Assembly (NCBI RefSeq): GCF_021026315.1
Contig: NZ_JAJNCX010000005.1
Location: 1 to 64,000, forward strand
Length of the DNA stretch: 64,000 bases
Direction: 5' to 3'
Source of the DNA: Rhizobium sp. C4
GTDB taxonomy: Bacteria; Pseudomonadota; Alphaproteobacteria; Rhizobiales; Rhizobiaceae
The position numbers and the translations under genes were made by a program. Position 1 is the stretch's first letter. Every line of letters begins with the position of its first letter. Positions 2,862 through 50,200 of this stretch are shown one piece after another. The notes below the pieces were generated by a model. The model saw only the letters and a program-made list of their open reading frames with translations, did no database searches and was not told where the DNA came from.

Positions 2862-3063
2862 GCGCGTGATGTCCGGAATATTTGGAGAAATCACCTAGGA
2901 TGATAGCCTTCTTTAGGCGGCGTGATCAAGCGCCATCATGTTATCAGCAAGATCTGCCCAGCGGCGGAAACACGGTTCTTTCGGATGGTCTTGCAAGGCT
3001 CACCAAGCCATGAAACCATCCCTCGAAACCGCCTTTCCGCTGAGACTTCGAGGAAGGATCGCC
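2862..3063. promoter_or_regulatory. putR-putA divergent control region
   Basis: About 200 bases separate the divergent putR and putA starts and must hold both promoters and the PutR binding sites. A purine-rich Shine-Dalgarno (GAGGAAGGA) lies just before the chosen putA ATG. No operator can be defined with certainty by eye. Confidence 0.5.
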
Positions 3064-6000
3064 ATGCCCGTTTCGCCATCGCCATTTGCCGCCTTTGCCC
3101 CCGCCATTCGTTCCCAGAGTGAGCTTCGCACCACCATCACCGCCGCCTATCGCCGGCCGGAAGTGGAATGCATGGCGCCGCTGCTTGCTGCTGCCAAGCT
3201 GCCGGCGGAGATGAAGGGGCAGGTGGCCGCAACGGCGACGGCGCTGATCAAGGCGCTCAGGGCTAAGCACAGGGGCACGGGCGTCGAAGGGCTGGTGCAT
3301 GAATATTCGCTCTCCTCGCAGGAGGGCGTGGCGCTGATGTGTCTGGCCGAGGCGCTGCTGCGCATCCCCGACACCGACACCCGCGACGCGCTGATCCGCG
3401 ACAAGATCGCCACCGGCGACTGGAAGGCGCATATCGGCGGCGGGCGCTCGCTCTTCGTCAATGCGGCGACCTGGGGGCTGGTCGTCACCGGCAAGCTCAC
3501 CTCCACCGTCAGCGATCGCCGCCTGTCTGCGGCACTCACCCGCCTGATCGCGCGGGCCGGCGAGCCGGTGATCCGGCGCGGCGTCGATATGGCCATGCGC
3601 ATGATGGGCGAGCAATTCGTCACCGGCGAGACGATCGACGAGGCCCTGGAGCGCGCCCGTGTGATGGAAGCGCAGGGCTTCCGCTATTCCTATGACATGC
3701 TGGGCGAGGCCGCGACCACGGCGGCGGATGCCGAGCGCTATTATCGCGACTATGAAAACGCCATCCACGCCATTGGCAAGGCAGCGGCCGGACGCGGCAT
3801 CTATGATGGCCCCGGCATTTCGATCAAGCTCTCGGCGCTGCATCCGCGCTATGTCCGCGCCAAGGCGGAGCGGGTGATGGGCGAGTTGCTCCCCAAGGTG
3901 CGCGCGCTGGCGCTGATCGCCAAGGGTTATGATATCGGCCTCAATATCGATGCCGAAGAGGCCGACCGGCTGGAACTCTCGCTCGACCTGCTGGAAGAGC
4001 TGAGCCTCGATCCGGCTCTGGCCGGCTGGAACGGTTTGGGCTTTGTCGTGCAGGCCTATGGCAAGCGCTGCCCCTTCGTGCTCGACTATATCATCGATCT
4101 TTCCCGCCGCTCCCGCCGCCGCATGATGGTGCGTCTGGTCAAGGGCGCTTACTGGGATGCCGAGATCAAGCGCGCCCAGATCGACGGGCTCGATGGCTTC
4201 CCGGTCTTCACGCGCAAGGTCCATACGGACGTGTCCTATATCGCCTGCGCCCGCAAGCTGCTGGCCGCGCCGGATGCCGTCTTCCCGCAATTTGCCACCC
4301 ATAATGCGCAGACGCTGGCGACGATCTATCATCTCGCCGGTCCCGATTTCGAAACCGGCAAATACGAGTTCCAATGCCTGCATGGCATGGGCGAACCGCT
4401 TTACGAAGAGGTGGTCGGCAAAGCCAAGCTCGGCCGTCCGGCGCGCATCTATGCGCCGGTCGGCACGCATGAGACGCTGCTGGCCTATCTCGTCCGACGT
4501 CTGCTGGAGAACGGTGCGAACTCGTCCTTCGTCAACCGCATCTCGGACGAAAATGTCTCGGTTGCCGATCTGGTGGCCGATCCGGTCGATGTGGTCGAGG
4601 CGATGCCGGTTCCCGGCGCGCCGCATGACCAGATCGCGCTGCCATCGGATATCTATGGTGCAAGCCGCCGGAATTCTTCGGGGCTTGATCTCTCCAATGA
4701 GGCCCAGCTTGCAGAGCTCGCGGTTGCCTTGCAAACGAGCGCGTCGCAGTCGTGGAATGTCGGCCCGCTGGTTGCCGAAGGCGATGCGAAGGGCGAAAGC
4801 CGCCCGGTTCTCAATCCGGCGGATCACGGCGATGTGGTCGGGCAGGTGACGGAACTCGACGCCAACGAGGCCGCGCGGCTTGTCCGCGTCGCCGCCGACC
4901 ATGCCGTCGCCTGGGCCGAAACCTCGCCCGCCGAGCGCGCCGCCTGCCTCGACCGTGCCGCCGATCTCATGCAGGCCAAGATCGAAATGCTGATGGGCAT
5001 TGCCATGCGCGAGGCCGGCAAGTCCGCCGCCAACGCCATTGGCGAGGTGCGCGAAGCCATCGATTTCCTGCGCTATTATGCCGATCAGGCCCGCAAGACA
5101 CTGGGCGCGGCCCATGCACCACTCGGTCCCGTCGTCTGCATCAGCCCGTGGAATTTCCCGCTGGCGATCTTCACGGGACAGGTTGCGGCAGCCCTCGTTG
5201 CCGGCAATCCGGTTCTGGCAAAGCCGGCGGAAGAAACGCCGATCATCGCCCATGAGGCGGTGAAGCTCCTGCATGAGGCCGGCGTGCCGCGCGCGGCCCT
5301 GCAATTCGTCCCCGGCGATGGCCGCGTGGGCGCAGCCCTTGTCGGCGCTGCGGAGACGGCGGGCGTCATGTTCACCGGCTCCACCGAAGTCGCGCGCCTC
5401 ATTCAGGCGCAATTGGCCGAACGGCTTTCGGCAAGTGGCAAGCCGATCCCGCTGATCGCCGAGACCGGCGGACAGAATGCGATGATCGTGGATTCCTCGG
5501 CGCTCGCCGAACAGGTTGTCGGCGATGTCATCGCGTCGGCCTTCGACAGCGCCGGCCAGCGCTGCTCGGCGCTGCGCATCCTCTGCCTTCAGGAGGATGT
5601 CGCCGACCGCGTGCTGCACATGCTGAAAGGGGCGCTTGCCGAACTGACGCTTGGCCGCACCGATCGCCTCGGCACCGATATCGGTCCCGTCATCACGGCG
5701 GAGGCCAAGGGCATTATCGAGGCGCATGTCGAGCGGATGCGCGGTCTGGGTCTGCCCGTCGAGCAGGTCGCCTTGCCGGCGGACGCCCGCAAGGGAACCT
5801 TCGTTGCCCCGACGATCATCGAAATGCCATCGCTGAAGGAGCTGAAGCGCGAGGTCTTCGGCCCCGTTCTGCATGTCATCCGCTATCGCCGCGCCGATCT
5901 CGACCGGCTGATCGATGAGATCAACGCGACCGGCTACGGCCTGACCTTCGGCCTGCATACCCGTCTCGACGAGACGATCGCCCATGTCACGAGCCGCGTG

Positions 6001-6735
6001 CGGGTCGGCAATATCTATGTCAACCGCAACATCATCGGCGCGGTCGTCGGCGTCCAGCCCTTCGGCGGGCGCGGGCTTTCCGGCACGGGACCCAAGGCCG
6101 GCGGGCCGCTCTATCTCGGCCGGCTGGTGCAGAAGGCTCCCGTGCCGCCGCAGCATCATTCGGTGCATACCGATCCGGAGCTCACCGAATTCACCCGCTG
6201 GCTGGATGAGCGGCAGGATCACGCCGGTGCCGAGGCTGCCCGGGAGATGGCGGAGCATTCGGCGCTCGGGCTGGCTACCGAGCTGCAGGGGCCGGTTGGC
6301 GAGCGCAATGTCTATGGCCTGCATCCGCGCGGCCGCATCCTGGTGGTCCCGCAAACGCTCGATGGACTGAAGCGGCAGCTGGCGGCAGTGCTGGCAACGG
6401 GCAATTCGGCGATTGTCGATGAGGCTTCGGGGCTCAAAGCGCAGTTTGGCACTTTGCCCGCTGCCGTTGCGTCGCGCATCGGCTGGGCCTTCGACTGGAA
6501 TGCGGCAGGACCCTTTGCCGGGGCGCTGATCGAGGGCAATGGCGATCGTGTGCAGACGGTCAACCAGAAGATTGCCGGCCTTTCCGGGCCGCTTGTTCTG
6601 GTGCAGGCTGCCACGACCGACGAGCTTCTGACCGACACCGATGCGATCTGCCTCAACTGGCTGCTCGAAGAGGTCTCGACCTCGGTGAACACGGCCGCCG
6701 CCGGCGGCAATGCCAGCCTCATGACGATCGGGTGA
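3064..6735 (+). CDS. putA: Bifunctional proline dehydrogenase / P5C dehydrogenase PutA
   Basis: This 1223-residue enzyme converts proline to glutamate in two coupled steps. The FAD-dependent proline dehydrogenase barrel (about residues 130-470) includes GPGISIKLSALHPRY and the THETLLAYLVRRLLENG motif. The NAD-dependent aldehyde dehydrogenase half (about 560-1000) carries PWNFPLAIFTGQ, ETGGQNAMIV and the catalytic cysteine near residue 834 in AGQRCSALR. The C-terminal segment ending NTAAAGGNASLMTIG is the conserved tail of long PutAs. There is no N-terminal ribbon-helix-helix, so it should not repress its own gene. ATG 3064 is preferred over upstream starts because of its ribosome binding site. 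Confidence 0.96.
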   Translation: MPVSPSPFAAFAPAIRSQSELRTTITAAYRRPEVECMAPLLAAAKLPAEMKGQVAATATALIKALRAKHRGTGVEGLVHEYSLSSQEGVALMCLAEALLRIPDTDTRDALIRDKIATGDWKAHIGGGRSLFVNAATWGLVVTGKLTSTVSDRRLSAALTRLIARAGEPVIRRGVDMAMRMMGEQFVTGETIDEALERARVMEAQGFRYSYDMLGEAATTAADAERYYRDYENAIHAIGKAAAGRGIYDGPGISIKLSALHPRYVRAKAERVMGELLPKVRALALIAKGYDIGLNIDAEEADRLELSLDLLEELSLDPALAGWNGLGFVVQAYGKRCPFVLDYIIDLSRRSRRRMMVRLVKGAYWDAEIKRAQIDGLDGFPVFTRKVHTDVSYIACARKLLAAPDAVFPQFATHNAQTLATIYHLAGPDFETGKYEFQCLHGMGEPLYEEVVGKAKLGRPARIYAPVGTHETLLAYLVRRLLENGANSSFVNRISDENVSVADLVADPVDVVEAMPVPGAPHDQIALPSDIYGASRRNSSGLDLSNEAQLAELAVALQTSASQSWNVGPLVAEGDAKGESRPVLNPADHGDVVGQVTELDANEAARLVRVAADHAVAWAETSPAERAACLDRAADLMQAKIEMLMGIAMREAGKSAANAIGEVREAIDFLRYYADQARKTLGAAHAPLGPVVCISPWNFPLAIFTGQVAAALVAGNPVLAKPAEETPIIAHEAVKLLHEAGVPRAALQFVPGDGRVGAALVGAAETAGVMFTGSTEVARLIQAQLAERLSASGKPIPLIAETGGQNAMIVDSSALAEQVVGDVIASAFDSAGQRCSALRILCLQEDVADRVLHMLKGALAELTLGRTDRLGTDIGPVITAEAKGIIEAHVERMRGLGLPVEQVALPADARKGTFVAPTIIEMPSLKELKREVFGPVLHVIRYRRADLDRLIDEINATGYGLTFGLHTRLDETIAHVTSRVRVGNIYVNRNIIGAVVGVQPFGGRGLSGTGPKAGGPLYLGRLVQKAPVPPQHHSVHTDPELTEFTRWLDERQDHAGAEAAREMAEHSALGLATELQGPVGERNVYGLHPRGRILVVPQTLDGLKRQLAAVLATGNSAIVDEASGLKAQFGTLPAAVASRIGWAFDWNAAGPFAGALIEGNGDRVQTVNQKIAGLSGPLVLVQAATTDELLTDTDAICLNWLLEEVSTSVNTAAAGGNASLMTIG

Positions 6736-6796
6736 GGGCAGGGCTGATCTGAACCTTCAGATCGCCTTTTCGTTGCAAGTCGTTGATTTTGAAAGG

Positions 6797-6834
6797 AACC
6801 GGGCGAAGCCGTGAAGCGGCTTTGTCCGGTTTTT
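6797..6834 (+). terminator. putA terminator
   Basis: A 15-bp stem with two G-U pairs (6797-6811 with 6817-6831) around a five-base loop is followed by a T run. It ends putA transcription and lies immediately beyond the stop of the convergent repeat-protein gene. Confidence 0.85.
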
Positions 6835-6835
6835 C

Positions 6836-9800
6836 TTATGAATTCCGGCTGAGATAGGCGGAAATGGCGGCGGCGACCTGATCGGGGTTGAGATTGCCCA
6901 TCTGCGTATCGACCAGCGCGCCAAGCTGCGCATTTGTCAGGGCGTTGATGTCGTCTGTCGACAGACCCTTGACGCCGCTGGAGTTCAGCGCGGCGATCTC
7001 GCCCGATGTGAAGGTCGCAAGCGAGGCCTGTGTCAGCGCGGCGACCTGCTGCGAGGTCAGCCCGCTGATCTGGCCGGAGCTCAGCGCATCGGCCTGCTCC
7101 GTGGTGAGCTGGGCGATCACCTGCGTGCCGAGGCCGGAAACGGCACCGCTGGTCAGCGCCTGAAGGGCCTGTGTCGACAGCAGCGCGACGTCGTCCGTCC
7201 CGAAGCCGGCGGCCTGGATGGCGTTCAGCGCGCCGAGCTGGCTCGTCGTCAGGGCCAGAACCTGCGCGGTGCCGAGCGCCACGATCTGGTTGTAGGTCAG
7301 TGCGCCCACCTGGCCGGTCGAAAGGCCTGCAATCTGGCCGGTCGTCAGGCCGTTGATGATGGCCGTCGAAAGACCCTTGAAGGCCGTGGGGCTCAGCAGC
7401 CCGATCTCGGTATTGCTCAGCACGGCGAAATCGGCCGTCGAGAAGCCGGCAAGGCCGTCCGCACTCAAGGCGGCCAGCTGCGCCGTCGACATGGCATCGA
7501 TCTGTGCCGGGCTCATGGCGGCGACCTGCGTCGATGTCAGGCCGGATACGCCCTTCGTGCCGAGCGCTGCGATTTCGGCGGCGGACAGCGAGGCGATATA
7601 GGCCGCCGGCAGGCCGGCAATGCCCGCCGAGCTGATCGAGGCAAGCTCGCCGGTCGACAGCGTCTGCAGGTCGGCGGTCGTCAGGCCGACCAGTGCCTGC
7701 GATGTCAGAGACGCGATCTGCGTGGACGAGAAGGCCTCAAACTGTTCGACGCGCATGGCGGCCAGCTGCGTGCTCGTCAGGCCGGAGACGCCGGTGGCGC
7801 TCAGCGCCGTGATCTGGCTGGTGGTGAGCGCATTGATGTCGGCGGTCGTCAGTGCGGCGACCTGATCCGACGTGAGTGCGGCGATCTGCGTGCTGCTCAG
7901 CGCGTGGAGCTGGTCGGTCGAAAGTGCTGCGACCTGCGCGGTGGTCATGCCGGACACGCCGGCGGTGCTGAGTGCGGCAATCTGCGTGGTTGAGAGCGAG
8001 GCCAGAACGGTGGTCGAGAGACCGGCAATCCCGGTGGCGCTGATGGCCGCCATCTCGGCGGTCGTGAAGGTGTTGAGATCATCCGCGCCGAGCACGGCGA
8101 TCTGGCGCGAGCTCAATGCGGCGATCTGCGTGCTGGTCAGCGCATCGGCCTGGTCGACGCTCAGCGCCGCGATCTGGGCTGTCGACATGCCGGCAATCGC
8201 CGAGGCGCTGATGGCGGCGATCTGCTCGCGGGTCAACGAGGCGACGATGGCTGTCGAAAGTCCGGCGATCGCGCCCGAGTTGATCGCGGCGATGTCGCCG
8301 GTCGACAGAAGATCGAAATTGGCGGAGCTGATGACGGCCAGCTGATCGGAAGACAGCGAGCCGATCTGGGCGGAGGAGAGCGCATTGATCTGGTCGGCGG
8401 TCATGCCGGCCACCTGCGCGGTCGAAAGGCCGGAGATCGCAGTGGTCGAGAGCGCGGCGGTCTGTGCCGTTGTCAGTCCGGCAATGGCCGAGACCGGCAG
8501 GGTGGAAACCTGCCTTGCCGTCAGCGCGCCGATCTGCGTCGTGGTCAGCGCATTGAACTGGTTGCTCGTCAGTGCCGCCACCTGTGTCGTCGACAGAGCC
8601 GCAATCGCTGCGGTGCCAAATGCGGCGATCTGGTCGCTCGTCAGGCTGGCGATGACCGTGGTCGAAAGACCGGCAATGCCGTTGGCGCTGATGGCGGCGA
8701 GATCGACCGTCGAGAAGGTTTCCAGATCCTGCGTTTCGATGGCGGCGATCTGGCGCGAGCTGAGGGCTGCCACCTGTTCAGACGTCAGCGCTTCCGCCTG
8801 GGCGGTGGAGAGGGCGGCGATCTGGTCTGTGGTGAGCCCGCTGATGCTGGCTGTTGCCAGCGAGGCGATCTGGTCCGTCGACATCACGGCGATATCCGCC
8901 AGCGACAGGACCGAAATCTGGCGCGAGGTCATCGATGCGGTCTGGCCGGTGGTGAGCGCGGCAATCTGGCTCGTGGTCAGCGTCGCGATCTGCGCCGTTG
9001 TCAGCCCAGGCAGGGCGGTGCTGCTGAGTGCAGCGATCTGTTCCGTTGGCAGCGCCGCCAGCACGGTCGTCGCGATCCCGACAATGGCGGAGGAGGACAG
9101 GGCCGCGACATCGCCGGTGGACATGGCGGCGAAGTCATCCGTCTGCAGCACGGCGACCTGCGCCGAGGTGAGCGCGCCGATCTGCGTCGAGGTGAGCGCG
9201 GCGATCTGGACGCTGGTCAGCGCGGCGACCTGCGCCGTCGTCAGCCCGGCAATCACGGCCGTGTTCAGCGAGGCGATCTGTTCGGCCGTCAGCGATGTGA
9301 CCGAGGCGGTGCCGAGCGAGTCGATCTGCCGCGCGTTCAGGGCCGCGAACTGTCCGGTGGACATGGCCTGGAACTGCGCGCTGCTGAAGGCGGCAATCTG
9401 CGCCGTGGTCAGGCCCGCAATGGCGGCCGTGCTGATCGCGGCGGCCTGGTCCTGCGAAAGCGCGGCAATGGCGGCCGTGCTGAGACCCGAAATGCCGGCC
9501 GAGCTGATGGCCGCGATGTCTTCCAGCGCAATGGCCGCAATATCGGCGGTGGTGAAGGCGGAAAGCTGCCGCGAGGTCAGCGTCGCATATTGCAGTGTCG
9601 TCAGGCCGTTGATCTGGGCGGTGTTGAGTGCGCCGATCTGCGCGGTCGTCAGTCCGGCGATCCCTGCCGAGCTGATGGCGGCGATCTGCTCGGGCGACAG
9701 TGCGGTGATGTCGACGGCACCGATGGCCGTGATCTGGCCGGCGGTCATGCCGCCGAGCTGGCTGTTGGTCAGGGCGGCGACCTGGGTCGATGTCAGCGCG

Positions 9801-12800
9801 CCGACCTGCTGCGTCGTCAGGCCGGGGATCGCGGTCGAGTTGATGGCGGCGATCTGGCGGGTGGAGAGCGTGGCCACCACGGCGGTGGAGAGACCGGCGA
9901 CGGACGCTGCGGTCAGCGACGCCATGTCAGCGGTCGAGAAGGTGGCAATCGCGTCCGAGCTCATGACCGCGATCTGCGAGGAGCTGAGCGCCGCAATCTG
10001 GATCGGCGTCATCGCCTCGATCTGCGCGGTGTCCATGGCCGCGATCTGGCGCGTCGACAGGCCCGAAATGCCGGCGGTCGAGAGGAAGGCGATCTGGTCG
10101 GTGCTCAGCTGGGCAATCACATCGGTCGAAAGCCCGCGGATGGCCGTCGAGCTGATGGCGGCCATGTCCTTCGACGAGAAGGTCGCCATGTCGGCCGCAT
10201 CAAGCACCGACAGCTGCGTCGAGTTCATGGCGCCGATCTGGTCGGGATTGAGCGCCGCCATCTGGTCGGTCGTCATAGCCGCCAGCTGCTGGGTCGTCAG
10301 GCCGGCGACGCTGCCGGAGGAGAGAACGCCGATCTGTGCCGTCGACAGGATGCCGATGACATCCGTCGAGAGAACCGAGACCTGCCGCGAGGTAAAGGCC
10401 GCAAACTGGGTCGCGGTCATCGCCTCGATCTGGCTCGTCGTCAGGGCGACGACCTGACGGGTCGAGAGGCCCTGGATGCCGAATGTGCTGAGCGAGGCGA
10501 TCTGGGTTGCGGTCAGGCCGGCGATGGCAGCCGTCGAGAGCGAGGCGATGGCGTCGGAGCCGATCGCTGCGATATCCCTCGTGGAGAATGTCGCGATGTC
10601 GGAGGCATCAAGAACGGCGAGCTGCGAGGAGGTGAGCGCCCCGACCTGCGACGAGGTCAGCGCTTCCATCTCGTCGGCGGTCAGGCTGTCGATCTGGCGC
10701 GTCGACATGGCGGCGATGCTGCGCGTGCTGATCGCGGCGATCTGCGCCGTCGACAGCGAGGCGAGTACATCCGTCGTAATCCCGCCGATCGCCGTCGGGG
10801 CGATGGAGGCCATGTCCTTGGTCGAGAAGGTTGCCAGCGCCTCGCTGCTGAGAACGGAAAGCTGGTCGGAGGAAAGGGCGCCGACCTGCGTGGGCGTGAG
10901 CGCTGCGACCTGATCGGTCGTCAGTGCCACCACCTGTCGGGTCGACAGGCCTGTCAGTGCCTTCGAATTGATCGCGGCGATCTGGCTGGTCGTCAGCGCG
11001 GCAAGGTCGGTTGAGGTGAGGACGGCGATCTGGTCCGACTTCAGTGCCGCAATCTGGCGCGTATCGAGGATCGCCAGCTGGTCGCTGGTCAGCGCATCGA
11101 CCTGCACGGTGGACAGACCGGCGACAGCCAGGGTGCTGAGTGCCGCCATCTGCGCGTTTGAGAGCGTGACCAGGACGTCGGTGGAAAGGCCGACGATCGC
11201 AGCCGGTGTGATGGCGGCGATGTCCTTTGTGGAAAAAGTCTCCAGCGCCTGCGTGTTCAGCGCTGCGATCTGGGCGGAGTTGAGTGCCGAAACCTGCGTC
11301 GGGATCAGCGCCCCGACCTGCGCCGTCGTCAGCGACGCGATCTGCCGGCTGGAAAGGCCCGTGATGCCGATGGGGCTGAGTGCCGCCATCTGGACGGTGG
11401 AGAGAAGCGCCAGATTGTCGGTGCTGAGCACGGAAACCTGCGCCGAGGTGAGGGCTGCAATCTGCCGGGTACCCAGCGCCATGATCTGGTCGCTGGTGAG
11501 TGCCGAGATCTGGTCGGACGTCAGTCCGCTGATCGCAAGCGTTCCAAGCGCCGCCATCTGCGTGGTCGTCAGCGCGCTGATGTCATCAAGCGACAGCGCC
11601 TTGATCTGCGCCGAGGACAGCATGACCAGCTGGCCCGTCGTCATCGCGCCGATCTGGGTGGTGCTGAGTGCACCGAGCTGGTCGGAGGTCAGGCGCGCAA
11701 CGGCCGACTGGCTGATGGCTGCGATCTGTGCACTGGAGAGGGCTGCGATGGCCTCGGTGGGGATCCGTCCGATCGAGGCGGTCGGGATCGCAGCGATATC
11801 TGCGGTGGAGAAGGTGGCGATGTCGCTGGCGTCAAGGACCGAAAACTGATCGGTCGACATGACGGCGATCTGCGTGGCGGTCAGCGCTTCGATCTGTGCG
11901 CTGCTGAGCGCGTTGATCTGGGTGGTGCGCAGCGCCGCAATCGCTGCCGTCGAGAACGCTGCGATCTGCGCAGAGGTGAGGGCGGACAGCTGATCGCTGT
12001 TCAAACCCTGCACGGTGGCGGCAAGAAGGGCTCCGATGTCCGCAGTCGAGAAGGTGGCGATGCCGGCAGACGAAATGGCCCCGAGTTGCAGCGAGGAGAG
12101 CGCGCGGACCTGCTGGGACGTCAGCGCCTGCGCCTGCGCGGTCGAAAAGACGGCGAGCTGATCGGTCGTGAGGCCTGAAATGCCTGCTGCGCTCAACGCG
12201 GCGATCTTGTCGGTCGACAGCATGGCGATCTTGTCGGTCGTCAGTGCCGAGATGCGGCTGCTGGCAATCGCCGCCATCTGGGCGGTCGTCAGGGCATGGA
12301 CCTGTCCCGAACTCAGCACGGCGACCTGTGTCGCCAGCATCTGGGCGATCGATCCTGTGCTGAGTGCGGCCACCTGCTCGTCCGCCATGGCCGCGACGGT
12401 GGCCGTCGGAAGACCGATGATGCTCTGGCTTGCCAGCGCCGCGATATCGGCCGTCGAAAGGGCAGCGATGTCATCCGTGCCGAAGGCCGACAGTTGCGCC
12501 GAGGAAAGAACCGCCACCTGGGTTGGCGACATGGCGCCGATCTGTTCGGCCGACATGGCGGCGATCTGCGCGCTTGTCAGCGCAGCGATCGCGCGGGTGC
12601 TCATCGCGGCGATCTGGTCCGTTCCCATGGCCGTGAGGGCCGCAGTCGGCAGGCCGGGAATGGCGGCGCTCGACAGAGCGGCAATCTTTGCCGTCCCGAG
12701 CACGCTGATGGCTTCGCCGCTGAGGGCGGAGAGCTGAATCGAAGTCAGGTTGGCGACCTGATAGATGGTCAGCGCAGCAATCTGATCGGTCGAGAGCGAC

Positions 12801-14569
12801 GAAACCTGCGCCGTGGTCAAGCCGCCAACGGCGCTGGTGCTGAGCGCTGCGATCTTGCCGGGGGGCAGCGTGGCGAGGTCTTCGGCATCAATCGCCGGGA
12901 TCTGGTTGCGCGTCAGCGAGGCAAGCTGGCCAGTCGAGAGCGCTGCAAACTGCTCGGACGTCAGTGCCGTGATCTGCGCCTGGCTGAGGCCGGGCATCGC
13001 GGCGAGCGAAAAGGCGGTGACCTGTTCGGGGGTGAGGATGGCCAGCGCGTCCGTCCTGATACCGGAGATGCCGGCGGGCGTCAGGGCGGAGAGGGTCAGT
13101 GTGGTGAGTACGGCGACGCCGTCCGGCCCGATGGCCGTGATCTGCCTCGCGCTGAAACCGCGGATCTGCAGCATGTTGAATGCCGCGATCTGGTCGGTTG
13201 AAAGGGCCTGGATCTGGGCGCTGCTGAGCCCCGGGATCGCAGTCCCGCAAATGGCGGCAATCTGCGCCGTGCTCAGCGCCTCAACCTGGGTGGACGAGAG
13301 GGCCGAGATCTGGATCGACGTCAACCGCCAGACCTGATCGGTCGAAAGGGCCGCGACCTGGTCGGTCGACAGCGCCCCGACCTGATCGGTTTTCAGCCGC
13401 GTGATCGCGACCGTCGACAAGGCCGCGACCTGATCGGTCGAAAGCGCGTTGATCAATGTCGAGGACAGGCCGGAAACCGCGTCGGCGTTGATGGCTGCCA
13501 TATCTTCCGGCGAGAAGCGCTGGATGTCGTCACTGGAGAGTGCTGCAATCTGTCCGCCGTTCAGTGCGCCGACCTGCGACGCCGACAGGGCCGCAACCTG
13601 GTCAGCCGACAGGGCTGCCATCTGGTCCGAGGAAAGACCGCTGATCGACGTGAGAGAGAGGGCCGAAATCTGGTCGCCGGTCAGGGAGGCGATGACTGCC
13701 GTCGAAAGGCCGGAAAGCGCCCGGCTCGAGAGTGCCGCCATCTTGTCGGAGGAGAAGGTCGCCAGGGCATCGGCGCCGAGGGCCGCAGCCTGGCCGGGGC
13801 CAAGCAGCTTCACCTGCTGCACCGTCAGGGCGGCAATCTGGTCGGTCGACATGGCTGCCACCACGTTCGACGACAGGCCGCTGATCATGCGCGTGTCGAT
13901 CGCGGCGATCTGGCCGGTCGACAAAGCGGCAATCGCTTCGGTGGAGAGTGAATTGAACTGTGGGGCCTTCATCGACCCGATCTGTGCCGGCGTCAACGCG
14001 GCGATCTGATCGGTCGACAGGGCGCCGAGCTGGGTCGACGTCAGGACCGAAAGTGCTGCGGTCGAAATTGCGGCCGTCTGCGGACCGCTGAGGCGCGCGA
14101 GTGCTGCCGCGCTCAGCCCGCCGATCGCGGTCCAGGAGATGGCGGCGATGTCGGCGGTGGAGAAGACGGCGATGTCGTCCGGTGTCAGCGCCGCGATCTG
14201 CCGCGAGTTCATGCCAGCGACCTGGCTGGAGGTGAAGGCCTCTATCTGGTCGCGGGCGAGCCCGCCCAACTGCCGCGTCGTCAGCGACGCTACTTGTCCC
14301 TGCGTCAGGCTCTCGATGTCCGTCGTGTCGAGAACGGCGAGCTGGTCGAGGCTGAGGCCGACAATGGCGCTGTTGGTGATCGCCCGCAGCTGGCTGGAGG
14401 ACAGGACGTTGACGTCTTCGGCATCAAGGGCCGCGATCTGTTCCGACGAGAGGAAGCCGATCTGCTGGCTCGACAGGGACGCCACATCCTCTGTCGTCCA
14501 CGCAGCAATCGCCGCGGTCGACATGGTTCTGATCTGGCTGGGGGTCAGGGTAGAGGCAGTCGATGTCAT
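6836..14569 (-). CDS. Giant octapeptide-repeat protein, 320 uninterrupted repeats
   Basis: The 2577-residue product is 7 leading residues (MTSTAST), exactly 320 octads, and a 10-residue tail (AISAYLSRNS). The octad consensus is L-[ST]-[ST]-x-Q-[IV]-A-A. I segmented the whole protein by hand and found no insertion, deletion or register slip. Positions 1 and 6 are hydrophobic, 2-3 are Ser/Thr, 5 is mostly Gln with Asp or Ala variants, and 8 is Ala or Gly. A Ser/Thr followed three residues later by Gln/Asp/Glu resembles a helix N-capping box. There is one Cys (octad 55) and very little Trp or Tyr. No signal peptide, membrane segment, RTX motif or enzymatic domain is visible. A subset of octads of the form xxx[AG][IV]xG recurs at spacings of 3 or 7 octads. 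Fold, location and function are unknown; a structural, adhesive or surface role is only a guess. Confidence 0.85.
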   Translation of the reverse strand: MTSTASTLTPSQIRTMSTAAIAAWTTEDVASLSSQQIGFLSSEQIAALDAEDVNVLSSSQLRAITNSAIVGLSLDQLAVLDTTDIESLTQGQVASLTTRQLGGLARDQIEAFTSSQVAGMNSRQIAALTPDDIAVFSTADIAAISWTAIGGLSAAALARLSGPQTAAISTAALSVLTSTQLGALSTDQIAALTPAQIGSMKAPQFNSLSTEAIAALSTGQIAAIDTRMISGLSSNVVAAMSTDQIAALTVQQVKLLGPGQAAALGADALATFSSDKMAALSSRALSGLSTAVIASLTGDQISALSLTSISGLSSDQMAALSADQVAALSASQVGALNGGQIAALSSDDIQRFSPEDMAAINADAVSGLSSTLINALSTDQVAALSTVAITRLKTDQVGALSTDQVAALSTDQVWRLTSIQISALSSTQVEALSTAQIAAICGTAIPGLSSAQIQALSTDQIAAFNMLQIRGFSARQITAIGPDGVAVLTTLTLSALTPAGISGIRTDALAILTPEQVTAFSLAAMPGLSQAQITALTSEQFAALSTGQLASLTRNQIPAIDAEDLATLPPGKIAALSTSAVGGLTTAQVSSLSTDQIAALTIYQVANLTSIQLSALSGEAISVLGTAKIAALSSAAIPGLPTAALTAMGTDQIAAMSTRAIAALTSAQIAAMSAEQIGAMSPTQVAVLSSAQLSAFGTDDIAALSTADIAALASQSIIGLPTATVAAMADEQVAALSTGSIAQMLATQVAVLSSGQVHALTTAQMAAIASSRISALTTDKIAMLSTDKIAALSAAGISGLTTDQLAVFSTAQAQALTSQQVRALSSLQLGAISSAGIATFSTADIGALLAATVQGLNSDQLSALTSAQIAAFSTAAIAALRTTQINALSSAQIEALTATQIAVMSTDQFSVLDASDIATFSTADIAAIPTASIGRIPTEAIAALSSAQIAAISQSAVARLTSDQLGALSTTQIGAMTTGQLVMLSSAQIKALSLDDISALTTTQMAALGTLAISGLTSDQISALTSDQIMALGTRQIAALTSAQVSVLSTDNLALLSTVQMAALSPIGITGLSSRQIASLTTAQVGALIPTQVSALNSAQIAALNTQALETFSTKDIAAITPAAIVGLSTDVLVTLSNAQMAALSTLAVAGLSTVQVDALTSDQLAILDTRQIAALKSDQIAVLTSTDLAALTTSQIAAINSKALTGLSTRQVVALTTDQVAALTPTQVGALSSDQLSVLSSEALATFSTKDMASIAPTAIGGITTDVLASLSTAQIAAISTRSIAAMSTRQIDSLTADEMEALTSSQVGALTSSQLAVLDASDIATFSTRDIAAIGSDAIASLSTAAIAGLTATQIASLSTFGIQGLSTRQVVALTTSQIEAMTATQFAAFTSRQVSVLSTDVIGILSTAQIGVLSSGSVAGLTTQQLAAMTTDQMAALNPDQIGAMNSTQLSVLDAADMATFSSKDMAAISSTAIRGLSTDVIAQLSTDQIAFLSTAGISGLSTRQIAAMDTAQIEAMTPIQIAALSSSQIAVMSSDAIATFSTADMASLTAASVAGLSTAVVATLSTRQIAAINSTAIPGLTTQQVGALTSTQVAALTNSQLGGMTAGQITAIGAVDITALSPEQIAAISSAGIAGLTTAQIGALNTAQINGLTTLQYATLTSRQLSAFTTADIAAIALEDIAAISSAGISGLSTAAIAALSQDQAAAISTAAIAGLTTAQIAAFSSAQFQAMSTGQFAALNARQIDSLGTASVTSLTAEQIASLNTAVIAGLTTAQVAALTSVQIAALTSTQIGALTSAQVAVLQTDDFAAMSTGDVAALSSSAIVGIATTVLAALPTEQIAALSSTALPGLTTAQIATLTTSQIAALTTGQTASMTSRQISVLSLADIAVMSTDQIASLATASISGLTTDQIAALSTAQAEALTSEQVAALSSRQIAAIETQDLETFSTVDLAAISANGIAGLSTTVIASLTSDQIAAFGTAAIAALSTTQVAALTSNQFNALTTTQIGALTARQVSTLPVSAIAGLTTAQTAALSTTAISGLSTAQVAGMTADQINALSSAQIGSLSSDQLAVISSANFDLLSTGDIAAINSGAIAGLSTAIVASLTREQIAAISASAIAGMSTAQIAALSVDQADALTSTQIAALSSRQIAVLGADDLNTFTTAEMAAISATGIAGLSTTVLASLSTTQIAALSTAGVSGMTTAQVAALSTDQLHALSSTQIAALTSDQVAALTTADINALTTSQITALSATGVSGLTSTQLAAMRVEQFEAFSSTQIASLTSQALVGLTTADLQTLSTGELASISSAGIAGLPAAYIASLSAAEIAALGTKGVSGLTSTQVAAMSPAQIDAMSTAQLAALSADGLAGFSTADFAVLSNTEIGLLSPTAFKGLSTAIINGLTTGQIAGLSTGQVGALTYNQIVALGTAQVLALTTSQLGALNAIQAAGFGTDDVALLSTQALQALTSGAVSGLGTQVIAQLTTEQADALSSGQISGLTSQQVAALTQASLATFTSGEIAALNSSGVKGLSTDDINALTNAQLGALVDTQMGNLNPDQVAAAISAYLSRNS
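6857..14548 (-). repeat. 24-bp coding tandem repeat, 320 units
   Basis: The octapeptide array corresponds to a 24-bp period over 7.7 kb. Units differ at the DNA level and the protein register is still perfect, which suggests selection on repeat length. The periodicity also opens long spurious frames on the plus strand. Confidence 0.85.
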
Positions 14570-14851
14570 GCTTTGGCCCGGTGTTCATCCATCGTCGTCG
14601 ACAAGTCATTTGTCTGCAAGCATGGGGAGACCCTATTCAGGCTGGCTTGCTTGAAGCTGTTGGATGGCGAGGGAGACTGCCAAAAATACTTTTCGCTGGA
14701 GAAGTCTTGTAGACTTGAGATCAGCGATTTGAATTCTGATATCTGTCAAAGAATCGGCCGTCTGCTTTTTGTACTTTTCAGACTTTTCGCGGCGCGATAA
14801 CACTGAAGCCGGATTGCCGAACGTCTCGCCAATCGGCTGAATTGATGATGA
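14570..14851. other. Intergenic region between repeat protein and receiver-kinase gene
   Basis: These 282 bases separate two divergent genes and must contain both promoters. They are less GC-rich than the surroundings, for example around 14687-14790. I see no EcfG-type promoter and no convincing gene here. Confidence 0.5.
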
Positions 14852-15904
14852 GTGGATATGGATACGCGCGTACTCTACATTGATGACGACGTTCCTCTCG
14901 CTCATCTGGTCCGTCGCAATCTCGGCCGGTTGAATCACGAGGTCATCCATGCGCATGATCCGGACGACGCCTTCGAAAAGCTGCAAAACGAGGTGTTCGA
15001 CGTCGTTGTTCTGGACCATTACCTGTCCAACATGACGGGCCTCGACATCCTGCGCCGCTTTCGCGAGTTTGGCATCTCGACGCCCGTTGTCTATGTCACG
15101 GGCTCCAGCGAGGCACGCATTGCCGTCGAGGCGCTGAAGAATGGTGCCTCCGACTATGTGATCAAGAATGCCAGCGAGGATTTCCTGTCGCTGCTGGCCG
15201 ATGCGGTCGTCAACACGGTCGCCAATGCAAGGCTTCGCAAGGCGAAGGAACTGGCGGACGAGGAAACACGGCGGGCGAAGGAGAGGGCCGAGGCGCTGCT
15301 GGCCGAGATGAACCACCGCGTTGCCAACAGCCTCGCGCTGGTGACCAGCCTGCTGAGGCTGCAGGCAAGTGCCGCCCAGCATGAAGAAACGCGGCAGGTG
15401 CTTCAGGAAACCCAGAGCCGGATTTCAGCGATCGCCGGGATGCATCGCAGTCTCTATTCCAACGACAAGATCAGCACGGTCGACATGAAGCCCTATATCG
15501 GGGCGCTGGTCGGCGATCTCTCGGATACGGTGAGCGGACCCGAATCGCGCCTGCGGATTTCGGCGCATCTGGACGAGATCGAACTTGCCGCCGACAAGGC
15601 GGTTTCCGTCGGCATGATCGTGACGGAACTGGTGACGAACGCACTGAAATATGCCTATCCCGAGGGCGAGGCGGGCGAAATCCGCATCATCTTCAAGCGT
15701 GTGGACGCAACCAATGCCCGGCTCGCCGTCGAGGACGACGGCGCGGGTCTTGCGTCGTCCTCGGAGGCGAAACCGGGCAACCACAAGACCGGCCTCGGCA
15801 CGCGCATCGTCCGCTCCATGGCGGACTCAATCGGAAACGGGATCCAGTATCCGCCGACGGATCGGGGGACGGTGGCCGAAGTGCTGGTTCTTCTGGAAGG
15901 CTGA
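14852..15904 (+). CDS. Receiver domain fused to HisKA_2/HWE-type histidine kinase
   Basis: Residues 1-120 form a response-regulator receiver with the acidic pocket DDD near residue 11, the phospho-acceptor Asp near 55 (VVVLDHYLS) and VTGSS. A short coiled coil (about 128-150) leads to a HisKA_2-type dimerisation helix with the probable phospho-His near 155 (AEMNHRVANSL), then an HATPase domain with VTELVTNALKYAYPEGE and EDDGAGL. It is a soluble hybrid kinase of the kind that feeds PhyR-type stress signalling in alphaproteobacteria. The start may be GTG 14852 or ATG 14858. It is divergent from the repeat protein and close to the general stress response genes; its partner is not shown by the sequence. 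Confidence 0.88.
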   Translation: MDMDTRVLYIDDDVPLAHLVRRNLGRLNHEVIHAHDPDDAFEKLQNEVFDVVVLDHYLSNMTGLDILRRFREFGISTPVVYVTGSSEARIAVEALKNGASDYVIKNASEDFLSLLADAVVNTVANARLRKAKELADEETRRAKERAEALLAEMNHRVANSLALVTSLLRLQASAAQHEETRQVLQETQSRISAIAGMHRSLYSNDKISTVDMKPYIGALVGDLSDTVSGPESRLRISAHLDEIELAADKAVSVGMIVTELVTNALKYAYPEGEAGEIRIIFKRVDATNARLAVEDDGAGLASSSEAKPGNHKTGLGTRIVRSMADSIGNGIQYPPTDRGTVAEVLVLLEG

Positions 15905-29913: not shown

Positions 29914-30036
29914 GCATGCAGACGGAACGGATTTGCTTGGGCCGTGTATGTTTGAGCATCATATTTCAAGGTTGAAACGATTTTACCGGCGGTGAGCACT
30001 TGCAAAAGCCGGTAAGTCCATCTTATCTTTGTCATG

Positions 30037-30193
30037 TTCTCAGGGCGGGGTGAAACTCCCCACCGGCGGTATCGGGAGAAATCCCGGAGCCCGCGAGCGC
30101 TTCCATCACGAGGGTGTGCCCGAACGGTGGAAGGTCAGCAGATCCGGTGAGATGCCGGAGCCGACGGTATAGTCCGGATGGAAGAGAATCGCG
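30037..30193 (+). promoter_or_regulatory. FMN riboswitch (RFN element)
   Basis: The conserved RFN aptamer is clear: CAGGGCGGGGTGAAACTCCC at its start, then CCGGCGGTA, a variable stem with GCCCGCGAGCG, GGTCAGCAGATCCGGT and GCCGACGGTATAGTCCGGAT at its end. It binds FMN and controls the ribB gene about 120 bases downstream. The interval after it (30194-30315) should hold the expression platform. Confidence 0.95.

Positions 30194-48168: not shown

Positions 48169-50200
<2,032 letters not shown>

Follow-up and report, generated by a model that had tools for sequence, protein, structure and literature searches.

A giant ALTTAQ octad-repeat protein of Rhizobium sp. C4 as a probable superhelix of 3.39 octads per turn with one selected face

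What can be read about the shape of a repeat protein from the order of its repeats? We analysed a 64,000-nucleotide stretch of Rhizobium sp. C4 DNA (hereafter the window; positions 1 to 64,000 of contig NZ_JAJNCX010000005.1, assembly GCF_021026315.1) that encodes P0001, a giant protein of the ALTTAQ repeat family. Our results make it very probable that P0001 is a superhelix of 3.39 octads per turn with one face kept by selection. The protein would be one long alpha-solenoid in which each octad forms a short helix (positions 3-7/8) joined by a two-residue extended corner (positions 1-2); with a rotation of about 106 degrees per octad, one superhelical turn would take 3.39 octads (27.1 residues) and the whole protein would make about 94 turns. 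Along this rod, selection would keep a straight lengthwise stripe with Gly at position 8 and Ala, Gly or Ser at position 5, neutral to slightly basic, and the opposite side would carry Asp and Glu at positions 4 and 5. The ALTTAQ family and its fold are already known, the fold having a solved relative; we found no earlier description of an incommensurate face at 3.4 octads or of the way charge is arranged around it. The features concerned are:

6836..14569, minus strand: giant ALTTAQ octad-repeat protein P0001, 2577 amino acids (open reading frame, octad parsing and Pfam)
6869..14548, minus strand: 320 octads in one register, consensus L-[ST]-T-x-Q-I-A-A (coordinates computed from the open reading frame)
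7373..13900, minus strand: octads 28-299 with a 50-node marker chain in steps of 3 and 7 (chain search)
9797..10948, minus strand: 48-octad segment modelled with AlphaFold2 (predicted local distance difference test, pLDDT, 94.1; predicted template modelling score, pTM, 0.79)
6836..6868, minus strand: degenerate last unit, C-terminal tail AISAYLSRNS and stop (identical in the orthologues L035, L037, L038 and L040 of the same genus)

The frame comprises 2577 codons and a stop, and its octads span residues 8-2567, with seven leading residues before the first octad and the degenerate unit at the end. The register is unbroken, with zero insertions or deletions across 320 octads, and the array follows the tandem pattern L-[ST]-x-x-Q-[IV]-x-A, with a consensus of L (70%)-S/T-T/S-x-Q (54%)-I-A-A/G. 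Against Pfam PF20080 (ALTTAQ_rpt) the whole protein scores 1316 bits, the cut-off being 26.4 bits, and 107 stretches each pass at E <= 1; no non-repeat domain was seen in P0001, and an NCBIfam scan of it gave nothing close to any cut-off. Matches to the Pfam models of sigma-70 region 4, CAAP1 and EndoS LRR exceed their whole-protein cut-offs with no single stretch at E <= 1, and we attribute these scores to the adding up of numerous weak matches to octads. The composition is dominated by Ala (20.4%), Ser (13.1%), Thr (12.5%) and Leu (11.7%), and the net charge is -96. Opposite the array lie antisense open frames of up to 690 amino acids (8385-10457 and others on the plus strand), which probably result from the repetitiveness of its codons.

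The first-pass annotation of the window, made from the sequence alone, had described octads with a small residue at position 5 and mostly Gly at position 8 that follow one another, between octads 28 and 299, in 31 steps of seven and 18 steps of three with no two threes adjacent, and had read them as a superhelix of 3.39 octads per turn (its unit numbers exceed our indices by one). When we searched freely for the highest-scoring chain of steps 3 and 7 between octads 28 and 299, exactly this pattern came out, with 50 nodes and a score of 131; 300 octad shuffles averaged 69 and reached at most 88. At the nodes position 5 is never Gln (50/50) and is Ala, Gly or Ser in 47/50, and position 8 is Gly in 41/50. 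The chain is a chosen subset, as Ala, Gly, Ser or Val stands at position 5 in 85 of the 320 octads, many of them at other helical phases. Gaps had also been said to be limited to 3, 7 and 10. Under a strict marker rule (position 5 not Q/D/E/K/R, position 8 Gly; 50 markers) this holds for 40 of 49 gaps (23 sevens, 12 threes and five tens) and fails for the remaining nine; that most gaps take these values follows from 3.39 not being a whole number. The word of threes and sevens is imperfectly balanced, three consecutive sevens being seen twice. Octads of the form F[ST]xxD had similarly been proposed to recur at 10 and 17 units, and for the 16 octads scored as F...[DE] both gaps do recur, among others (27, 43, 18, 10, 24, 17, 10, 17, 10, 16, 35, 27, 26, 10 and 8).

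The period was determined by Fourier analysis, with one indicator series per residue type and octad position. Gly at position 8 peaks at 0.2950 per octad with a power of 37, 100 shuffles reaching at most 10.5 at any scanned frequency, and the combined marker of the first-pass annotation peaks at the same 0.2950 with a power of 41 against a shuffle maximum of 11. The all-residue spectrum has three lines, at 0.2954, 0.4098 and 0.1144 (power 5.9, 4.9 and 4.8; mean 1.0, standard deviation 0.5), which are harmonics 1-3 of a single fundamental, f0 = 0.2952, aliased into the range 0-0.5. The underlying shape is therefore a narrow stripe with a period of 1/0.2952 = 3.3875 octads, or 27.1 residues, and the predicted spectral peak near 1/3.39 was found as one fundamental far above the shuffles. 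Across three fits f0 of this array lies between 0.2952 and 0.2955, i.e. within about 0.1 percent.

Binning the octads of P0001 on the fitted period lays out the stripe. In the phase bins from 0 to 0.10, Gly occupies position 8 in 80-88% of octads, and Ala, Gly or Ser occupies position 5 in 73-82%; position 5 is Asp or Glu in 44-56% near phases 0.40-0.45 and 0.70-0.75, and between the stripes, their flanks excepted, it is Gln in 75-100%. The phase-folded composition of position 5 therefore resolves three non-Gln stripes, spaced by about one third of a turn. Net charge per octad is +0.07 to +0.27 on the Gly side (bins 0.80-0.15) and -1.1 opposite (bins 0.40-0.50), the acidic side of the rod having its Asp and Glu at positions 4 and 5. 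Phe at position 1 clusters at phase 0.70-0.75 and Ile at position 1 at 0.95-0.05. The phase is coherent along the array: in nine overlapping 64-octad windows Gly at position 8 stays at 0.92-1.01 turn, and Ala, Gly or Ser at position 5 at 0.95-1.00, except in the first (1.09).

Full-length orthologues with 71-84% identity occur on contigs of Rhizobium sp. C1 and of two 'Rhizobiales bacterium' isolates, and more distant relatives, of less than 60% identity, occur in 58 plasmid records, including those of Rhizobium, Shinella and Sinorhizobium. The five same-genus sequences (P0001, L035, L037, L038 and L040) have 320 octads each and are 70-84% identical in pairs over the octads; among them Gly at position 8 is invariant at 44/48 sites on the stripe (phase bins 0.9-0.2) and at 6/11 sites off it, and position 4 is the least conserved. 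Of five other same-genus genomes searched, one (G002) had no match. With the window's own genome included in each count, PF20080 is present in 13/101 close genomes, 6/385 of the class and 28/398 of the phylum (25 over the cut-off), and among 14 control genomes in Caulobacter vibrioides alone.

The period recurs in other families and classes. We surveyed 44 arrays of at least 50 contiguous octads, the window's included; orthologues and fragments of the same gene are among them, and they are not independent. Left out were shorter arrays (L049, L054, L090, L096 and one of two in L088), five stretches in which the filter picked no array (L050, L084, L119, L126 and L129), L095, and L091-L093, which repeat L040, L038 and L037. 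The band 0.286-0.300 (3.33-3.50 octads) tops its own in-band maximum of 100 shuffles in 38/44 arrays, that of the window among them; in 35/44 it surpasses whatever the shuffles reach anywhere in the spectrum, and in 31/44 it holds the highest line between 0.02 and 0.48. Fitted periods of passing arrays run from 3.37 (e.g. L094, from a Thiotrichales metagenome-assembled genome, MAG) to 3.44 (L086, L088 and L123), and the short L124 (59 octads) gives 3.50, the band edge. Four plasmid relatives, run separately, have periods of 3.39-3.40, the fixed register fitting just 43% of the octads in one of them, L144. The best self-identity lags across arrays include 7, 10, 17, 24, 27, 31, 34, 44, 48, 62 and 96 octads, and arrays that differ in these lags share the same spectral band.

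Relative phases are also shared between proteins. We compared 20 chosen arrays, each pair of features using only arrays with a power of at least 3 for both. Measured from Asp/Glu, Gly at position 8 lies 0.50 turn away (15/20 arrays; resultant 0.805), Lys/Arg at position 7 0.46 turn (12/20; 0.87), all Lys/Arg 0.49 turn (14/20; 0.65), Ala/Gly at position 5 0.57 turn (13/20; 0.60) and Phe at position 1 0.17 turn (8/20; 0.89). Asp/Glu at position 4 lies at 0.98 turn (12/20), as expected because much of the acidic signal comes from there. Ser and Thr at position 3 occupy opposite sides (9/20; 0.91). Weak or inconsistent relations to Asp/Glu are those of Ser at position 3 (10/20; 0.49), Thr at position 3 (11/20; 0.34) and Ile at position 1 (8/20; 0.42), as is that of Gly at position 8 to Lys/Arg at position 7 (10/20; 0.52). 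The Rayleigh p-values (best about 1e-4) treat as independent arrays that are in fact related, and within one octad basic and acidic residues are to some extent mutually exclusive.

One helix per octad is a confident prediction of two AlphaFold2 models. The 48-octad window segment was modelled from an alignment of orthologues and phase-matched segments of P0001, some rows shifted by ten octads; in it 92-100% of octads are helical at each of positions 3-7, 42% are helical at position 8 and none at positions 1-2. A 40-octad segment of L094 (pLDDT 93.5, pTM 0.82) is predicted likewise, with positions 1 and 2 helical in 2% and 5%. We also scanned 180,000 random repeat backbones with positions 1-2 extended, keeping those that are clash-free, turn positions 1 and 6 inward and make contact between turns. 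This left 3930 solutions, of which 3802 have between 2.2 and 3.6 octads per turn, the distribution peaking near 2.6 and 3.2. For the 514 solutions at 3.3-3.5 the median pitch is 8.6 Å when right-handed (89) and 9.1 Å when left-handed (425), and in them positions 2, 3, 4 and 7 point outward, 5 slightly inward and 8 nearly tangentially. The scan, a crude feasibility check, agrees with the sequences, in which the outward position 4 is the least conserved. At a pitch of about 9 Å, 94 turns would make a rod of roughly 80-90 nm, and the twist of the real structure would be near the fitted value. Other backbones were tried and rejected. With position 2 alone extended, thin open coils resulted, almost always left-handed and with a pitch of about 30 Å, and none of 9186 clash-free cases had core contacts, so that the two-residue corner replaced it. 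Core contacts did form with a left-handed, Gly-like position 1 (152 solutions) or with position 8 extended (58), the medians being 2.1-2.2 octads per turn; we rejected both, since position 1 seldom carries Gly and the helix of the model extends through position 7.

Several observations weigh against a selected face at 3.39 octads per turn. Six of the 44 arrays (L116, L118, L120, L121, L122 and L134), all of family f231, fail the band test; their octads alternate in type, with a two-octad line as the dominant one, and eight other f231 arrays pass. Two arrays, L125 and L087, break the charge layout, with basic and acidic residues in phase. Predicted helix length has no 3.39 periodicity in either AlphaFold2 model, so that a face finds no independent support there. 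Among the backbones of the scan, whose main mode is near 2.6, a value of 3.39 is close to the upper limit of what is allowed; positions 5 and 8, which bear most of the signal, point slightly inward or sideways in these backbones, as would suit curvature as well as docking. Finally, no GT41 glycosyltransferase, UDP-galactopyranose mutase or type I exporter, HlyB and HlyD included, lies beside the window's ALTTAQ gene, and in its genome the best match of an ABC (ATP-binding cassette) exporter to TIGR01846 reaches 393 bits, below the cut-off of 726.

Beside the family f231 arrays we observed that their genomes (L116-L122 and L132-L134) hold many giant ALTTAQ frames, of up to 6436 amino acids, several with alternating octad types and a two-octad period over a weak or absent 3.4-octad one. 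The L094 array ends in some 125 residues without octads (about 8740-9116), Pfam finding ALTTAQ alone in its last 372 residues. On the IMG/VR viral contig L096, a 374-residue ALTTAQ protein (5986-7110) lies upstream of an endolysin-like gene and also matches PHROG 15773, of unknown function. The whole of P0001 matched no phage record in a search that filtered low-complexity sequence.

What would the stripe be for? A screw of identical units gives no side preference, and a stripe of constant phase therefore calls for an outside reference, either a partner along the rod or a bend. Tentatively, we consider it a fair conjecture, short of an even chance, that the stripe docks sideways onto a partner, be it another rod or a surface. 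Phased A-tracts bend DNA, and in the same manner small residues recurring once per turn could pack the turns more tightly on one side, so that the rod bends into an arc or ring. This second possibility, which we hold to be rather unlikely, would explain why the strongest signal is of Gly, Ala and Ser at positions 5 and 8, slightly inward or tangential in the scan, and repulsion between the acidic residues opposite the stripe would favour a convex surface there; mesothelin, the nearest older fold match by probability, is also described as a curved solenoid. Gly and Ala at semi-buried positions would indeed bend a rod, whereas charge at exposed positions favours docking: the outward positions 4 and 7 also carry phased charge in several families, pointing to an interface, and a helix length varying with phase is absent from the models.

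A different reading of the same line is that the rod carries two identical stripes on opposite sides and really has about 2.84 octads per turn, 0.295 then being an alias of the doubled angular advance. The main mode of the scan near 2.6 would fit it, but it needs two exactly alike sides with no residue preferring either, and we consider it improbable: 11 arrays chosen for the test have no power at f0/2, (1-f0)/2 or thirds (largest value 1.45, for L094 at f0/3, over a background of 1).

The reading that fares worst, as a very improbable one, is that the pattern is a structurally meaningless relic of the duplication of 10-, 17- or 27-octad blocks. It draws on the raised amino-acid identity between octads at lags of 10, 17 and 27 (0.396, 0.410 and 0.422, over a background of 0.311 for lags up to 250), on recent block duplications in relatives (L036 at lag 34, identity 0.79; L085 at lag 24, 0.92; L088 at lag 62, 0.79) and on a mild fall of near-phase identity with distance (slope -0.00012 per octad, correlation -0.48). 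Identity nevertheless follows phase. Along the further multiples of 17 (34, 51, 68, 85, 102, 119, 136, 153 and 170) it sinks through 0.375, 0.391, 0.359, 0.345, 0.324, 0.321, 0.306 and 0.298 to 0.304, as steps of 17 octads (5.02 turns) slowly move out of phase, and multiples of 27 likewise sink to background; yet it persists at near-whole-turn lags of 44, 61, 78, 105 and 122 (0.403, 0.392, 0.410, 0.411 and 0.395) and even of 166, 183, 227 and 244 (0.394, 0.395, 0.387 and 0.368). The excess is mainly confined to position 5 (+0.214), position 8 (+0.184) and position 3 (+0.079), the other five gaining +0.025 to +0.046, and the third bases of four-fold degenerate codons have almost none (0.417 at near-whole-turn lags, n=19, vs 0.408 at far-phase lags, n=191). 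The fitted 0.2952, moreover, falls between 5/17 = 0.2941 and 8/27 = 0.2963. Duplication alone thus fails both tests, and the solenoid that the first-pass annotation had preferred to 10- and 17-unit blocks is supported; recent duplication in the window array is ruled out by the third bases and the lags. Ancient duplication may have supplied raw material for a pattern that, to judge from the sequences, is kept by selection on phase. Even duplicated blocks keep near whole turns, the best self-identity lag lying within 0.12 turn of an integer in 42/44 arrays, a count partly circular as each period was fitted on the same array; the two exceptions, both in family f231, have lag 4. The recent internal duplications we observed measure 17/34 octads, or 5.0/10.0 fitted turns (L036, 7885-15024), 24 octads, or 7.0 turns (L085, 5702-11614), and 31/62 octads, or 9.0/18.0 turns (L088, 4237-12408).

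The gene in the window is flanked by:

14852..15904, plus strand: divergent neighbour, a response regulator receiver with a HisKA_2/HWE-type histidine kinase (domain scan)
2938..6735, plus strand: convergent neighbour, a putative PutA-like bifunctional proline enzyme (open reading frame list)

Judged by the start of its sequence, the PutA-like gene also adjoins the orthologues in L035 and L040. A promoter and terminator scan upstream of the ALTTAQ gene found none. Elsewhere in the window two riboswitches score above Rfam gathering thresholds, for flavin mononucleotide (FMN; 30032-30193, plus strand) and thiamine pyrophosphate (TPP; 50066-50196, minus strand). A repeat DNA pattern has a single match in the window.

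Around the relatives, a tblastn survey covered 56 distinct stretches (59 searched, three duplicates), several of them orthologous, so that counts are not independent. GT41 queries match the catalytic part in 16/56 stretches, adjoining the array or up to about 6 kb off, and only the tetratricopeptide repeat (TPR) part in two more, L115 and L127; the other 38, the window included, have no GT41, a contig end accounting for some. Pfam confirmed GT41 in all four enzymes scanned (L036, L042, L044 and L088). UDP-galactopyranose mutase is found in 9/56 stretches, HlyD-type genes in six and long HlyB-type matches in four, with both types in L085, L089, L125 and L127. The L085 HlyD scores 292 bits against TIGR01843, over the 209-bit cut-off, and the L089 exporter 606 bits against TIGR01846, under its cut-off of 726. 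Five GT41 genes occur in the host genome of P0001, and one of them directly adjoins a second ALTTAQ gene (contig 24, truncated by the contig end). In L044 a gene for the flagellar M-ring protein FliF (13678-15387) follows the array, with GT41 and UDP-galactopyranose mutase upstream. From such gene neighbourhoods we conclude that export occurs for some ALTTAQ proteins; many may also be glycosylated, the Ser and Thr of the octad corners being candidate sites. By kinship the same could apply to the window copy, and P0001 would then be an extracellular or surface rod.

The twist of repeat proteins is normally taken from structures. For P0001 it could be read from sequence to about 0.1 percent, and for the family we would predict 104-107 degrees per octad. 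A stripe in phase over 94 turns would give the rod a side, so that it must bend, bundle or dock, and the function of these giant, so far uncharacterised bacterial proteins thereby becomes open to test. The GT41 gene that recurs beside them likewise makes ALTTAQ proteins candidate substrates for bacterial GT41 enzymes. Speculatively, and with considerable doubt, one may picture a widespread, undescribed class of giant secreted rods built of a very short helical repeat, perhaps O-glycosylated by a partner GT41, bearing stripes on an incommensurate screw with Gly and basic residues opposite acidic ones, zipping side by side into fibres or sheets, and retaining duplications mainly over whole turns. 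In our literature search, which did not extend to bioRxiv and most subscription papers, neither the ALTTAQ repeat nor PF20080 was named in any paper and a period beyond the octad was nowhere described, nor was there anything on the family under octapeptide superhelices, phased solenoid faces, or GT41 with type I secretion.

How does P0001 compare with known systems? The solved relative of its fold is HeliScrew4 (PDB 9zem), which has the same octad pattern and matches P0001 in phmmer at 8e-17, or at 2.7e-25 with a profile of the L094 segment. It differs in size, having 120 amino acids and about fifteen octads only, and from its name and regularity is presumably a designed protein; we found no paper on it, and it is not among the 50 matches listed in either Foldseek fold search (library to April 2026). 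The best older Foldseek match by probability (1.00) is mesothelin (8cx3 and 7ued), with a TM-score of at most 0.38 and a root-mean-square deviation of 8-13 Å. According to its authors (PMC10035497), mesothelin is a compact right-handed solenoid of 24 short helices; it differs from P0001 in being eukaryotic and in its irregular, ARM/HEAT-like repeats. P0001 falls outside ARM/HEAT, whose repeats are of 30-40 residues and two or three helices, as its own are single helices of eight residues and the TM-score does not exceed 0.38. The designed 8cws has a lower E-value to the window model than mesothelin, but a TM-score of 0.14. Among the 50 matches listed from a viral fold library the TM-score is at most 0.29, and at most 0.20 for the best by E-value, an uncultured Caudovirales protein. 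In gene context the closest parallel is that of GT41-modified adhesins such as HMW1 with HMW1C (PMC3012730; PMC3983070), as in the ALTTAQ relatives too a giant repeat protein has a GT41 gene nearby. The four ALTTAQ-side GT41 enzymes, however, match the NGT (HMW1C-type) model weakly, at 18.9-22.5 bits against a 1000-bit cut-off, and carry TPRs; and whereas HMW1 is exported by two-partner secretion, six ALTTAQ stretches instead have type I HlyD-like genes.

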